Position numbers and translations under genes: made by a program
DNA from: Alloscardovia theropitheci
GTDB lineage: Bacteria; Actinomycetota; Actinomycetes; Actinomycetales; Bifidobacteriaceae
NCBI RefSeq assembly: GCF_004332295.1
Contig: NZ_RXLP01000023.1
Location: 1 to 64,000, forward strand
Direction of reading: 5' to 3'
DNA length: 64,000 nucleotides
The notes under the pieces: generated by a model
Told to the model about the DNA's origin: nothing
The model's database searches: none
Seen by the model: only the letters and a program-made list of their open reading frames with translations
Shown here: one piece after another, positions 3,472 to 22,193 of the stretch
Position numbering within the stretch: position 1 is the stretch's first letter
Layout: every line of letters starts with the position of its first letter

Positions 3472-4797
3472 TTAGTGAGAAGCGTCGTATTCGGTCTTCC
3501 AACCGTCAACGAATGCCGTCTTTACAGCAGACCATTCACCTGTTCCTTGTGCGTATTCGAGCAATGCATTTCCGAGATTATTCTTCCATGTCTCAGAAGG
3601 CATCATGGTAAAGTTCCAAGAAACTACTTCATGCCCAGCCTTGACATCGTCAACAGCTGCCTGAACCAATGGATTCTCAGACTTGATATCTTCGAAGTTC
3701 TTGAATGGCACAGTGAAGCCCATATCTTGAGAGAGGGACTTCTTACCCTGATCAGAGCTTGTAACCCACTTCAAGAAGTCTTCAGTAGCCTTTTGATCCT
3801 TCTCAGATGCCTTGGAGTTAATGCACCAGTAATTTTCAGAACCAGTAGCAAGACCTTGCTTTTCTTCGCCCTTAGCACCGATATAAATTGGGAGCATTCC
3901 TACAGTATCAGCACTCATTCCTGCCTTGCTCAAATCAGACCAAGCCCATGTACCATTTTGATAGAAAGCTGCCTTTCCAAGCGCAAACTCAGAATTAGCA
4001 TCATCACCAGTCTTAGAGCTAAGCTGCGTACGAGGAGTTGTGGAGTCTGTAATGTACAAGTCGAAAATCTTCTTGTAATTATCGAGATATGAGCCCTTAA
4101 TCGTTTCTGGCTGAGAGGTAATCTTATCTGCCTTGAATTCGTAGAATAATGGCAAATTTGCAAGGTGAGTCTTGAAACGCCAATCGGAGCTTGAATCGAA
4201 ACCTGCAGATGTAAATGCACCATCGACTCCAAGTTCATCCTTATGCTTTTGGATGCCATCAGCAACTGCCTTGAGCTTATCAAAGCTATTAATTTCTTCT
4301 GTTGACTTCACAGCAGCATCAGAAAGAGCAAAATACTTGTTCAGAATGTCCTTGTTATAAATCAAGCCATATGTTTCTGTTACATATGGAACGCCTACAA
4401 CCTTGTCACCATCCTTCAAAGCCATGCTCTTATCAGTAAGCTGATCGTAAATATATGACTTTGATAAATCAGCCGTGTAATTCTTCCAGTTCTGATAACC
4501 AACAGGTCCGTTAATTTGGAACAATGTAGGAGCATCGGTCTTAGCAATTTCTGACTTAAGAGTCTGCTCATACGAACCTGAAGCAGCATTTTGAACTTTA
4601 ACTTCTACACCAGTTTCTTTGGTGTATGCTTTTGCCAATTCTTGCCACTGATCTGCATTTTCTGGCTTAAAGTTCAGGAAGTATACCTTTCCTTTACCAT
4701 TATCGCTTGAGCTTGAATTAGAGCAAGCTGCCAGAGCACTAAATGACATCGCAACTACAGCAGTTAACGCTATGGTTGACTTCGCAATTCGATTCAT
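3472..4797 (-). CDS. Sugar ABC transporter substrate-binding lipoprotein
   Basis: 441 residues, solute-binding protein family 1 (MalE/UgpB-like). I start at MNRIAKSTIALTAVV because GGGGAGG lies 8 bases upstream; the earlier in-frame ATG at 4821 lacks a site. The signal peptide ends with a lipobox LAAC, giving a lipid-modified Cys at about residue 25. A Ser/Asn linker follows, then the binding domain, with a typical ELAKAYTKETGVEVKV start and a GKAAFYQNGTWAWSD stretch late in the protein. It probably feeds the MalF/MalG-like permeases at 1-1647, though the regulator gene lies between. The substrate cannot be read from sequence. Confidence 0.92.
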   Translation of the reverse strand: MNRIAKSTIALTAVVAMSFSALAACSNSSSSDNGKGKVYFLNFKPENADQWQELAKAYTKETGVEVKVQNAASGSYEQTLKSEIAKTDAPTLFQINGPVGYQNWKNYTADLSKSYIYDQLTDKSMALKDGDKVVGVPYVTETYGLIYNKDILNKYFALSDAAVKSTEEINSFDKLKAVADGIQKHKDELGVDGAFTSAGFDSSSDWRFKTHLANLPLFYEFKADKITSQPETIKGSYLDNYKKIFDLYITDSTTPRTQLSSKTGDDANSEFALGKAAFYQNGTWAWSDLSKAGMSADTVGMLPIYIGAKGEEKQGLATGSENYWCINSKASEKDQKATEDFLKWVTSSDQGKKSLSQDMGFTVPFKNFEDIKSENPLVQAAVDDVKAGHEVVSWNFTMMPSETWKNNLGNALLEYAQGTGEWSAVKTAFVDGWKTEYDASH

Positions 4798-4894
4798 CGT
4801 CGAACCTCCCCTGATGCGCATTCACGCATCACATTAATCTTCCATGAAAAATGTCACCGTTAATCGGATAGCTCAATTATGCATCAATCTTTTT

Positions 4895-17963: not shown

Positions 17964-19034
17964 ATGACCACAATGAAGGAAATATCCGCTTTAGCAGGAG
18001 TATCCGTATCCACTGTGTCTCTAGTCCTTAATAATCGTGATTCTGGCCGTGTCAATACACAGACAGCAGAACATATCCGTGCACTAGCCCATCAATTGGG
18101 TTATAAGCCAAATCAGATGGCAAGAAGCTTACGTACTAGCCGAACTCATATCCTTGGTTTCCTTAGTGATGAAGTTGCGACAACGCCTTATGCGGGAGCA
18201 ATGATTAGCGGTGCCCAAGATGCTGCAAGCCAGTATGGATATGTAATTATGACGGTCTCAACAGATAACGAAGCACAAGAGCGTCACGAGATAGCAGCTC
18301 TCGAACGTTACGGTGTAGATGGATTTTTCCTCGCAAAAATGTCTAATCGGCATTCACGCGTGCCAGAAAATTTAAGCGAATATCCTGTCGTGCTCGTTAA
18401 TTCTACATATGATTATTCTTCTGCGAAGAAAACTTCGATAGCGGGTGTTCCACGATACACCGGTATCGCACCAGACGAAAAACGTATTGGGTACGATGCC
18501 ACAAAACGACTTATTGATGCTGGTTGCACACGTATCGCATATATTGGATGCCATGAGCCAATGATTGCTGAAACGTTACGTTTCGAAGGTTACCAAGATG
18601 CTTTAAAAGATGCTCGCATTGAATATGATTCGAATCTATGTATCCAAGTAGGTAATAATACTCCCGCTTTACAGGCGGTTCATTCGTTAATAGATAAACA
18701 TCATCCCGATGGATTCTTCTGCTTTAACGATGCACGCGCGTGGTATGTCTATGACTGTGCAGCACGCCTCGGCCAAGAAATTGGTCGCGATATCCACATT
18801 GTCGGCGTTGATAATCACCGTGTATTAGCTGAAACGCTATCTCCGCAGCTTACGACCATTGAATTGCCCCACTATGAAATGGGGTATTGGGCAGCATGCA
18901 AACTTATCAGCATGATTGAGGAAAAAGATACACAGGATTTTGAGATACCTGATACCACAGCTCCTCTGCCATCACTTGATAACGATGGTGATGTGTTCAT
19001 ACAATGTGCTCTCATAGAAAAAGAATCCGTATAG
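17964..19034 (+). CDS. LacI-family regulator of the sucrose locus
   Basis: 356 residues. Helix-turn-helix MKEISALAGVSVSTVSLVLN at residues 4-23, hinge with YKPNQMARSLRTSRT, then a sugar-binding domain (TTPYAGAMISGAQDAASQYG; IGVDN-like HIVGVDNHRVLAE). AAAGGA precedes the ATG. It lies directly upstream of the symporter and sucrase, on the same strand, as in bifidobacterial cscR/scrR clusters. The 34-bp palindrome between it and the symporter is its likely target. The inducer is presumably sucrose or fructose; that is inference from context. Confidence 0.9.
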   Translation: MTTMKEISALAGVSVSTVSLVLNNRDSGRVNTQTAEHIRALAHQLGYKPNQMARSLRTSRTHILGFLSDEVATTPYAGAMISGAQDAASQYGYVIMTVSTDNEAQERHEIAALERYGVDGFFLAKMSNRHSRVPENLSEYPVVLVNSTYDYSSAKKTSIAGVPRYTGIAPDEKRIGYDATKRLIDAGCTRIAYIGCHEPMIAETLRFEGYQDALKDARIEYDSNLCIQVGNNTPALQAVHSLIDKHHPDGFFCFNDARAWYVYDCAARLGQEIGRDIHIVGVDNHRVLAETLSPQLTTIELPHYEMGYWAACKLISMIEEKDTQDFEIPDTTAPLPSLDNDGDVFIQCALIEKESV

Positions 19035-19155: not shown

Positions 19156-19189
19156 CACGTCAATCGTTTGACGTCAAACGATTGACGTG
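19156..19189. promoter_or_regulatory. Perfect 34-bp palindrome: double LacI-type operator
   Basis: The 34 bases are exactly self-complementary about position 19172.5. They comprise two adjacent 14-base sites, GTCAATCGTTTGAC and its reverse complement GTCAAACGATTGAC, flanked by CAC and GTG. Each site is itself a near-palindrome centred on CG, like LacI-family operators. It overlaps the presumed -35 box of the symporter gene. Confidence 0.8.
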
Positions 19190-19210
19190 CTATTTTATAA
19201 GCGTTAACTA
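19182..19210 (+). promoter_or_regulatory. Promoter of the sucrose symporter and sucrase
   Basis: TTGACG (19182-19187), inside the palindrome, and TAACTA (19205-19210) are spaced by 17 bases. A second pair, TTGACG (19168-19173) with TATTTT (19191-19196), is also possible. Either would be blocked by repressor on the palindrome. Confidence 0.5.
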
Positions 19211-19287
19211 AATGAGCGACGATGTCATTAAGCACACCGCAGTTCATAGCTAACGAAAACGATAAAGTTCTAAGAATCGAGATAGCA

Positions 19288-20601
19288 ATGGTGCGTAAAA
19301 GTTTCGCCACATGGAAAAATCCATCATACTTGCAAAGTTCCTTCGGAATTTTCATGTTCTTCTGCTCATGGGGTATCTGGTGGTCATTCTTCCAACGTTG
19401 GCTTAATACTATTGGATTAAATGGCGCCGAAGTCGGTCAAATCTACTCCATCAATTCCCTCGCCACACTCATTATCATGTTTGCATATGGCGCTATTCAA
19501 GATCAGCTTGGTATTAAGCGCTATCTCGCTATCGCCATTTCCGCTATAGCTGCACTCATCGGACCATTTGTGCAGTTCATTTACTATCCAATGATCAACG
19601 CAGGTGGAACTATTCGTTTTATTGGAGCTCTCATTGGTTCAGTTGTTCTTTCCGCTGGATTCATGGCTGGATGTTCGCTTCTTGAAGCTCTTACAGAACG
19701 TTATTCTCGTAAATTCTCCTTTGAATACGGGCAATCTCGCGCATGGGGATCTTTTGGATACGCTATCGTCGCACTGATTGCAGGGCACGTTTTCAATGTC
19801 AACCCATTGATTAACTTCTGGATTGGATCCGTATTCGGACTCGCAATGCTTGCTATTTATGCTTTCTGGATTCCTACAGAACAGCGCGAAGAGCTTAAGA
19901 AGCAATCCGATCCACAAGCTACACCAACTAATCCTTCGCTTAAAGAAATGATTTCAGTTTTGGGGATGCCTACTTTATGGCTGTTGATTGTATTTACACT
20001 GCTTACTAATACTTTCTACACCGTATTTGACCAGCAAATGTTCCCAACCTTCTACACAAGTCTCTTCCCTACGGAAGAAATTGGTAATAGCACTTATTCC
20101 ACTCTCAACGGCATACAGGTATTTATCGAGTCTGCAATGATGGGTGTAGTCCCAATAATTATGCGTAAAATCGGCGTACGTAACTCTCTTCTTTTGGGAG
20201 CATTCATTATGTTCGCACGTATCGGACTGTGTGGAGTATTCCACGATCCAATTAGCATCTCAATTGTAAAACTCTTCCACTCGATTGAAGTACCTCTGTT
20301 TATCCTCCCAGTGTTCCGTTACTTCACATTGCATTTTGATACGAAACTTTCTGCAACGTTATACATGGTTGGATTCCAAATTGCTTCTCAGGTAGGCCAA
20401 GTCGTATTCTCCACTCCTCTGGGAGCTTTGCACGACCGTTTAGGCGATCGCCCTACATTCTTAACTATTTCCTTCATCGTTCTTATTGCATTAATCTATG
20501 GATTCTTCATCATCAAGAAGGATGATCAGGAAGTTGGCGGTGATCCATTCTATACTGATAAGCAGCTAGCAGCTATGAAAGAATCAGCACAAAACGCTTA
20601 A
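19288..20601 (+). CDS. cscB: Sucrose:proton symporter, LacY/CscB family
   Basis: 437 residues from MVRKSFATWKNPSYLQSSFG. Oligosaccharide:H+ symporter of the major facilitator superfamily with 12 membrane segments. The N-terminal WKNPSY and FFCSWGIWWSFF, then the MFAYGAIQDQLGIKRYL loop between helices 2 and 3, fit the LacY/CscB group. The open frame extends to ATG 19222, but the family begins near the WKNP motif, so I take the shorter form; its ribosome site is weak. Between a LacI regulator and a sucrase 35 bases downstream, so sucrose is the likely substrate. Confidence 0.88.
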   Translation: MVRKSFATWKNPSYLQSSFGIFMFFCSWGIWWSFFQRWLNTIGLNGAEVGQIYSINSLATLIIMFAYGAIQDQLGIKRYLAIAISAIAALIGPFVQFIYYPMINAGGTIRFIGALIGSVVLSAGFMAGCSLLEALTERYSRKFSFEYGQSRAWGSFGYAIVALIAGHVFNVNPLINFWIGSVFGLAMLAIYAFWIPTEQREELKKQSDPQATPTNPSLKEMISVLGMPTLWLLIVFTLLTNTFYTVFDQQMFPTFYTSLFPTEEIGNSTYSTLNGIQVFIESAMMGVVPIIMRKIGVRNSLLLGAFIMFARIGLCGVFHDPISISIVKLFHSIEVPLFILPVFRYFTLHFDTKLSATLYMVGFQIASQVGQVVFSTPLGALHDRLGDRPTFLTISFIVLIALIYGFFIIKKDDQEVGGDPFYTDKQLAAMKESAQNA

Positions 20602-20636: not shown

Positions 20637-22193
20637 ATGACCACCTTCATCCCTAATGAACCCGTCATTCACAGCATCGCTAATCATGCCGCTGAACTCG
20701 AGCGTGCTGAACAAGGCGTAGCTCAGCTTGAAGCACAGCGAAATAACCGCTGGTATCCAAAGTTCCATATCGCTTCAAATGGTGGATGGATTAATGATCC
20801 AAATGGTCTTTGCTATTACAAAGGTCGTTGGCATGTCTTTTACCAGCTTCACCCATATGGAACTCAATGGGGACCAATGCATTGGGGCCATGTATCTTCG
20901 TCCGACATGATTGATTGGCGTCGTGAGCCAATTGCATTCGCGCCTAGCTTAGAGGAAGAGAAGCATGGTGTCTTTTCCGGTTCTGCTGTTATCGGTGATG
21001 ACGGCAATATCCGCTTCTACTACACAGGTCACCGTTGGTCAAACGGTACAGATAACACAGGTGGCGATTGGCAAGTTCAAATGCTTGCAGAACCTGATGA
21101 TGATTCGCTCAATACCTTTACTAAGCGAGGCATGATTATTGATTGTCCACTAGATCAGGTCGATCACCACTATCGTGACCCAAAGGTATGGAAGACCGGC
21201 GACACATGGTATATGACCTTCGGTGTTTCTTCTAAGGAAAAACGCGGTCAGATGTGGCTATTTAATTCCACTGATATGGTCCACTGGAATTATGAACGAG
21301 TACTTTTCGAGCATCCTGATCCAAATGTCTTTATGCTCGAATGCCCAGACTTCTTCCCTATTAAGGATGCTCAGGGTAACGAAAAATGGGTTATCGGATT
21401 CTCAGCTATGGGCACGAAAGCTAGTGGCTACATGAATCGAAATGTCAACAATGCTGGATACATGATTGGTACTTGGACCCCTGGAGAATCATTCAAGCCA
21501 GAAACGGAATTCCGCTTGTGGGATTGGGGTCATAATTATTATGCTCCACAATCCTTTAATGATGGTCATCGCCAAATTGTTTACGGATGGATGAGCCCAT
21601 TTGCTGAACCAATTCCGATGCACGATGATGGCTGGTGCGGAAACCTAACTCTTCCTCGCGAAATTACTTTAGGCTCCGACGGTGATCTCTATACGGCTCC
21701 GGTACGAGAGATGGAAGATTTACGCATTGATACTCAAGACTTATCAACTGAACCTCTCAAAGCTAATGAAACTAGAATTCTTGCACAAGACGGTGAAGCT
21801 GTAGAGCTTGAAGTAAGTATCGATTTGTCTACAACCACAGCCGAGCGTACAGGCGTAAAGGTACACGCTACCCCAGATGGCACTTACACATATATCGCAT
21901 ATGACCAGCAGACACAGCGCGTTATCATTGACCGTCAAGCAGCTTATGCAGGTGATCGAGGTTATCGTGCAACTCCCGTCAGCGACGCTGAGGTAGCAAG
22001 TGGAAAACTTGATTTACGTATCTACGTTGATCGTGGATGTGTTGAAGTATATATTAACGGCGGCAAGCAGGCGATGAGTTCGTATAGCTATGCTGGTGAA
22101 GGACCTCGCTCAATCGAATTGATGAGTGAATCAGGTGAAACCCATTACTCTACTGTTCGCCTTCATAATCTCAAATCCATTGGATTAGAGTAA
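20637..22193 (+). CDS. cscA: Beta-fructofuranosidase (sucrase), GH32
   Basis: 518 residues, intracellular (no signal peptide). Splits sucrose, and perhaps short fructo-oligosaccharides, to glucose or shorter chains and fructose. The nucleophile Asp54 is in WINDPNG, the RDP motif is at 180-182 and the acid/base Glu235 is in ECPDFF. The five-bladed propeller covers about 40-350 and the beta-sandwich the rest. AAAGGAAA stands 5 bases before the ATG. It shares an operon with the symporter. The fructose released would be used by the PfkB kinase at 49878. Confidence 0.95.
   Translation: MTTFIPNEPVIHSIANHAAELERAEQGVAQLEAQRNNRWYPKFHIASNGGWINDPNGLCYYKGRWHVFYQLHPYGTQWGPMHWGHVSSSDMIDWRREPIAFAPSLEEEKHGVFSGSAVIGDDGNIRFYYTGHRWSNGTDNTGGDWQVQMLAEPDDDSLNTFTKRGMIIDCPLDQVDHHYRDPKVWKTGDTWYMTFGVSSKEKRGQMWLFNSTDMVHWNYERVLFEHPDPNVFMLECPDFFPIKDAQGNEKWVIGFSAMGTKASGYMNRNVNNAGYMIGTWTPGESFKPETEFRLWDWGHNYYAPQSFNDGHRQIVYGWMSPFAEPIPMHDDGWCGNLTLPREITLGSDGDLYTAPVREMEDLRIDTQDLSTEPLKANETRILAQDGEAVELEVSIDLSTTTAERTGVKVHATPDGTYTYIAYDQQTQRVIIDRQAAYAGDRGYRATPVSDAEVASGKLDLRIYVDRGCVEVYINGGKQAMSSYSYAGEGPRSIELMSESGETHYSTVRLHNLKSIGLE

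Follow-up and report, generated by a model that had tools for sequence, protein, structure and literature searches.

Between the LacI-family regulator gene cscR and the cscB-cscA pair of Alloscardovia theropitheci, ~120 bp past cscR, lies a 34-bp sequence that is exactly its own reverse complement. This raises the question of what the locus retains: the symmetry itself, the two half-elements within it or the promoter around it. Our analysis of the window (the whole 64,000-nt stretch of DNA examined) and of related genomes indicates that the palindrome is very probably a double operator, embedded in a promoter, at which the neighbouring LacI-family repressor CscR acts.

The palindrome, its dyads and the promoter

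The palindrome (19156–19189, no strand assigned) reads CACGTCAATCGTTTGAC|GTCAAACGATTGACGTG and is self-complementary without mismatch and with zero loop, as a sequence-only reading of this DNA had stated. It alone in the 64-kb window has zero-loop arms of more than 8 nt, the runner-up being 16 bp long (8-bp arms); zero-loop arms of at least 17 nt are expected by chance 5e-6 times per window and 1.5e-4 times per 1.96-Mb genome. Inside it are two abutting, CG-centred 14-bp dyads of the LacI type with a centre-to-centre distance of 14 bp, predicted from sequence and conservation to be CscR operators: an upstream site 1 (19159–19172, near-palindromic GTCAATCGTTTGAC) and a downstream site 2 (19173–19186, near-palindromic GTCAAACGATTGAC), neither assigned to a strand. 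Column conservation across 69 clusters of tandem loci identifies both 14-mers as even palindromes with a central CG. The earlier description of each half as a near-palindromic LacI-type site, and of the whole as two abutting operators before the sucrose genes, thus stands, and the layout is kept in relatives. The conserved operator form is 16 bp, C-GTCAANCGNTTGAC-G, with the outer C and G each conserved at ~80 %, and the CG bases of the 16-bp forms are shared between the abutting sites. Exact matches to GTCAANCGNTTGAC occur at a single place in the whole genome, the 34-bp palindrome.

The product of cscR (17964–19034, plus strand) was assigned from its domains and orthologues as a LacI-family repressor with a helix-turn-helix and a sugar-binding domain (PF00356, residues 3–50; PF00532, residues 62–329; PF13377), and it is the presumed ligand of both operators. 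As expected of a bifidobacterial CscR orthologue, its gene adjoins cscB and cscA, which by homology encode a LacY-type sucrose permease (listed ORF 19222–20601, plus strand) and a GH32 sucrose hydrolase (20637–22193, plus strand), respectively. Passages of PMC4746261 describe the same arrangement for bifidobacterial CscR and the csc genes, with CscR predicted in 10/10 genomes studied. Because homologues of the permease align from residues 10–31, the mechanically listed start at 19222 appears too early, and the ATG at 19288 (residue 23) is probably the likelier start of translation. Many Bifidobacterium loci (e.g. L045 and L054) also carry a conserved degenerate dyad, GTGTATCGTTTGAC, at −16/−17 of the cscR start; the placement of this dyad ~16 bp upstream of cscR suggests possible autoregulation, and it was not found in this window.

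The seam between the two operators reads as a −35 box, a point that the sequence-only reading overlooked. TTGACG (19168–19173, plus strand) takes its first five bases from the right half-site of site 1 and its last from the start of site 2, and is followed, after a 17-bp spacer, by TATTTT (19191–19196, plus strand), a −10 box with 4/6 matches to the consensus that is TATAAT-like in relatives. Site 2 fills the spacer, and the −10 begins 4 nt beyond it. Across the 69 clusters the seam TTGACGT is nearly invariant, the hexamer being TTGACG in 84, TTTACG in 4 and TTGCCG in 2 of 90 loci. Because agreement with TATAAT is highest 17 bp past the seam (mean 4.5/6; best spacer in 58/69 clusters), the predicted promoter is TTGACG-17-TATAAT with the seam as its −35, in keeping with the sigma-A layout (a TTGACA-like −35, a TATAAT-like −10 and a spacer of ~17 bp). 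A −35 box within site 2 was rejected, as no −10 peak follows it. The weakness of the −10 in this genome (TATTTT) was counted against the reading as a double-operator promoter.

Conservation and spacing in Bifidobacteriaceae

CscR orthologues are present in most of 189 genomes of the family, and we compared 140 loci of up to 8 kb each, of which nine lie at CscR-like paralogues that are less closely related. Within the 110 CscR-to-csc intergenic regions, 193 dyads were counted at ≤2 mismatches, where a shuffled set gives 0.65. When spacings in these 110 regions were counted without presupposing a pitch, 79 pairs lay at exactly 14 bp, none at 1–13 or 15–27 bp and the remainder at 28–69 bp; a genome-wide scan allowing inter-dyad gaps of 0–26 bp returned gap 0 throughout, except for two matches at gaps of 18–19 bp. 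The 14-bp tandem stands upstream of cscB in 82/99 cscB loci, with dyads at 21–22 bp in 14 and another arrangement in 3; under the double-site definition of Ravcheev (~13 bp, conserved within an orthologous group), these 82 qualify with a pitch of 14 rather than 13. Moreover, the tandem travels with cscB where gene order is altered (Galliscardovia ingluviei and Bifidobacterium callimiconis), and it is still found with cscB in Alloscardovia macacae, in which cscB lies away from cscR.

Among the 69 clusters, the flanks are at background beyond ~10 bp upstream, and both dyads, the seam and the −10 stand out. Per-base conservation is 83–97 % even in the left half of site 1, which plays no part in the promoter. 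Perfect symmetry, by comparison, is rare: the 28-bp core is a perfect palindrome in only 10/90 tandem loci and sub-site orientation is variable, with direct repeats at other loci. Perfect symmetry was therefore dropped as a functional feature; judged from these alignments, it is an incidental by-product, and the element predicted to matter functionally is the 28-bp operator tandem joined to the promoter. The sequence-only reading had staked itself on conservation of the palindrome in close relatives; most of them have lost the perfect symmetry while retaining the double operator. A few lineages manage with one clear dyad (a degraded or absent partner in the g15 loci L071, L130 and L157; a single dyad in L118, L123 and L129), so a double site is not strictly required.

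At 26 loci (L040, L045, L059 and L104 among them), a third CscR-type dyad, absent from this window, lies 32–37, 44–47 or 52–55 bp upstream of site 1. These distance clusters are about one helical turn apart, and the phasing (R=0.64 at 10.5 bp) is only suggestive, the points not being independent.

A clade of 14 genomes retains TTGACG-17-TATATT and the dyad in its spacer, with the upstream dyad shifted to a pitch of 21–22 bp, such that two dyads are kept even with the upstream one freed from the −35. The outer half-sites of this clade read TTCTC or TTCC in place of TTGAC, and the recognition helix of its CscR reads ASVTAVSMALN or ASVTAVSLSLN, against VSVSTVSLVLN elsewhere. On the CscR tree the helix label has to change twice (one member nested in the clade is unlabelled), which amounts essentially to a single origin. 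Helix and operator thus changed jointly, which links CscR to these operators; the pairing of a helix change with a half-site change in one clade is indirect evidence that the same regulator would act at both sites.

Occupancy of the two sites and alternative readings

Directly established are the anatomy of the sequence, its conservation, the exactness of the pitch, the register of the promoter and the joint helix/operator change; binding and repression by CscR, the nature of its inducer, and any simultaneous occupancy or cooperativity of its sites are inferred. Each 14-bp dyad would be the site for one CscR dimer. With sucrose absent, a dimer on either dyad would block sigma-A RNA polymerase at the −35 or in the spacer, and having two dyads would make it likelier that one or the other is occupied; with both filled, two dimers would probably sit ~120 degrees apart round the helix. 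Release of CscR by sucrose or a product would then allow transcription of cscBA.

This geometry does not match the suggestion, made from the sequence alone, that the two dimers lie on about one face of the helix, because 14 bp corresponds to 1.33 turns (~120 degrees); in-phase spacing occurs only in the 21–22-bp variant of the one clade. Tetrameric repression, proposed at the same time, found no support: inspection by eye of the CscR C-termini, typically ...TTAPLPPLDAPIPAKIHCTLIEKESV, revealed no LacI-type leucine-heptad tetramerization helix, and a same-face tetramer at 14 bp was rejected. E. coli LacI at lac is likewise a LacI-family repressor of a sugar operon; its operators, however, are separated (92–401 bp apart) and are bridged by tetramer looping, whereas the dyads of CscR abut and its C-termini show no such helix. 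Cross-talk with the LacI protein encoded from 2021 had also been raised. GCAAACGATTGT (1958–1969) lies 51 bp before that gene and is likely the site of its product. It has other letters at the second-base T of GTCAA and at the partner A, which are 97–100 % invariant in CscR sites, and because of these differences cross-talk between CscR and the 2021 protein appears unlikely.

Whether the two dyads act at once, and what fixes their pitch, can be read in several ways. We only tentatively propose that two dimers bind the abutting 14-bp dyads simultaneously and cooperatively, ~120 degrees apart, and that the family has, in the course of evolution, moved between such binding and an in-phase 22-bp mode, along with a rewritten recognition helix; the balance would tilt against this combined claim. 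Alternate use, to which we would give no greater and no lesser credence, holds that neighbours at 14 bp exclude each other, so that one dimer is bound at a time and the second dyad adds capture, with the promoter blocked either way. The two sites are out of phase, and because each LacI-type dimer touches the DNA out to 7 bp or more from its centre, neighbouring footprints centred 14 bp apart meet. Passages of PMC4052901 regard dimers ~13 bp apart as structurally unable to interact, which counts against double occupancy, and lineages with a single dyad exist. However, the pitch is exact in 79 pairs, and the change to 21–22 bp left both dyads in place, as though having two were important. A further possibility, falling just short of an even chance in our estimation, is that the pitch is set by the promoter alone, the TTGAC half-site serving as the −35 and the second dyad being fitted into the spacer, with no need for protein–protein cooperation. 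In line with this, the seam is the −35 box in 84/90 loci with a 17-bp spacer, and only abutting sites can supply the CG that the 16-bp operator forms have in common. A 17-bp spacer would nevertheless give site 2 some slack, and none is seen; in addition, of the ten matches outside the family (see below), six have the 14-bp pitch at a LacI-family gene, in most cases with no TTGACG seam, although this is a weak objection given that the scan fixed the pitch.

Two other readings do away with the pair of operators. The seam is itself symmetric and CG-centred (TTTGAC|GTCAAA), as would suit one larger complex, a single dimer or a tetramer, centred there and reading the whole 34 bp; the free orientation of the sub-sites, the lone dyads at distal positions and the separation of both dyads by 7–8 bp in one clade make this very improbable. 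Less credible still is a role in RNA as a terminator or attenuator hairpin: the element is a perfect inverted repeat in an intergenic region just past cscR, but it has neither a loop nor a T-run, the predicted transcription start lies downstream of it and imperfect copies in relatives retain operator letters rather than pairing, and this reading was rejected.

Relation to known double sites

The double operator that we favour resembles sites already on record. Passages of PMC4052901 (2014) on LacI-family intersite distances describe closely spaced double sites, with the shortest peaks at ~13 and 22 bp; the ~13-bp class has one demonstrated functional example, that of E. coli GntR at gntKU (citing Tsunedomi et al. 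2003), and is presented there as structurally unexplained. The csc element is a further case of this known but unexplained kind, clean and family-wide, sharing with the GntR/gntKU class described there two CG-centred LacI-type dyads, contact zones that meet or overlap and conservation within an orthologous group. The pitch is exactly 14 bp at csc, compared with 13 read by eye in the sequence upstream of E. coli gntK. At csc, moreover, the −35 coincides with the seam and the spacer is taken up by site 2, whereas the passage of PMC4052901 on the ~13-bp class names no promoter link. The second peak in that source, at 22 bp, matches the alternative 21–22-bp spacing of the bifidobacterial clade; the obligatory 21–22-bp double sites that it gives for RafR (Enterobacteriales) and ScrR (Burkholderiales) have the same two-turn pitch as this derived clade and differ from the 14 bp of most Bifidobacteriaceae. 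The bifidobacterial CscR regulon of PMC4746261 involves the same regulator family and target genes, and the main-text passages of that paper do not describe a tandem layout. The csc promoter is thus a deeply conserved example of the ~13-bp class with a simple rationale, the seam being the −35 and the second dyad the spacer. Its 14-bp and 22-bp orthologues provide a natural comparison by which cooperativity becomes separable from promoter constraint, and a compact promoter–operator unit is obtained from sugar-fermenting commensals.

Scanning 84,980 species for the exact tandem, with the pitch fixed at 14, returned 68 stretches, ten of them outside Bifidobacteriaceae and the other 58 within it. 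A LacI-family gene adjoins six of the ten, namely those in Kaistia, Shinella, a Chloroflexi MAG, Pseudonocardia, a Fimbriimonadaceae MAG and an Armatimonadetes MAG (L208, L223, L231, L237, L240 and L242), which hints, for a scan that fixed the pitch at 14, that this pitch recurs outside the family. A pattern scan at class level, covering 395 genomes, detected no tandem other than the present one, and a generic scan of LacI-gene loci in this genome and others of the class recovered the 14-bp pitch at CscR only, alongside one 22-bp pair and one 27-bp G+C-rich pair. Exact CscR-type tandems were also seen in B. aquikefiri (L234, 7359–7386), near a distant GH32 gene, and in B. psychraerophilum (L184, 4695–4722), with no csc gene identified nearby; they may mark additional regulon members.

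Finally, the cscB leaders of many Bifidobacterium loci (L044, ~4756–4880; L040, L045–L048, L060 and L080) contain one or two hairpins between the promoter and cscB, ~20–36 and 80–95 nt after the −10, with differing stem sequences and an RYGGMA hexaloop (most commonly ACGGCA). The hairpins are not evident in this window, and those of ten loci gave no Rfam match at the gathering threshold. Their pairing is moderately above that of shuffled flanks (0.63/0.55/0.57/0.48 against ~0.4), and positions 1 and 4 of the hexaloop resemble those of ANTAR-target RNA, with a linker longer than the published 2–25 nt.
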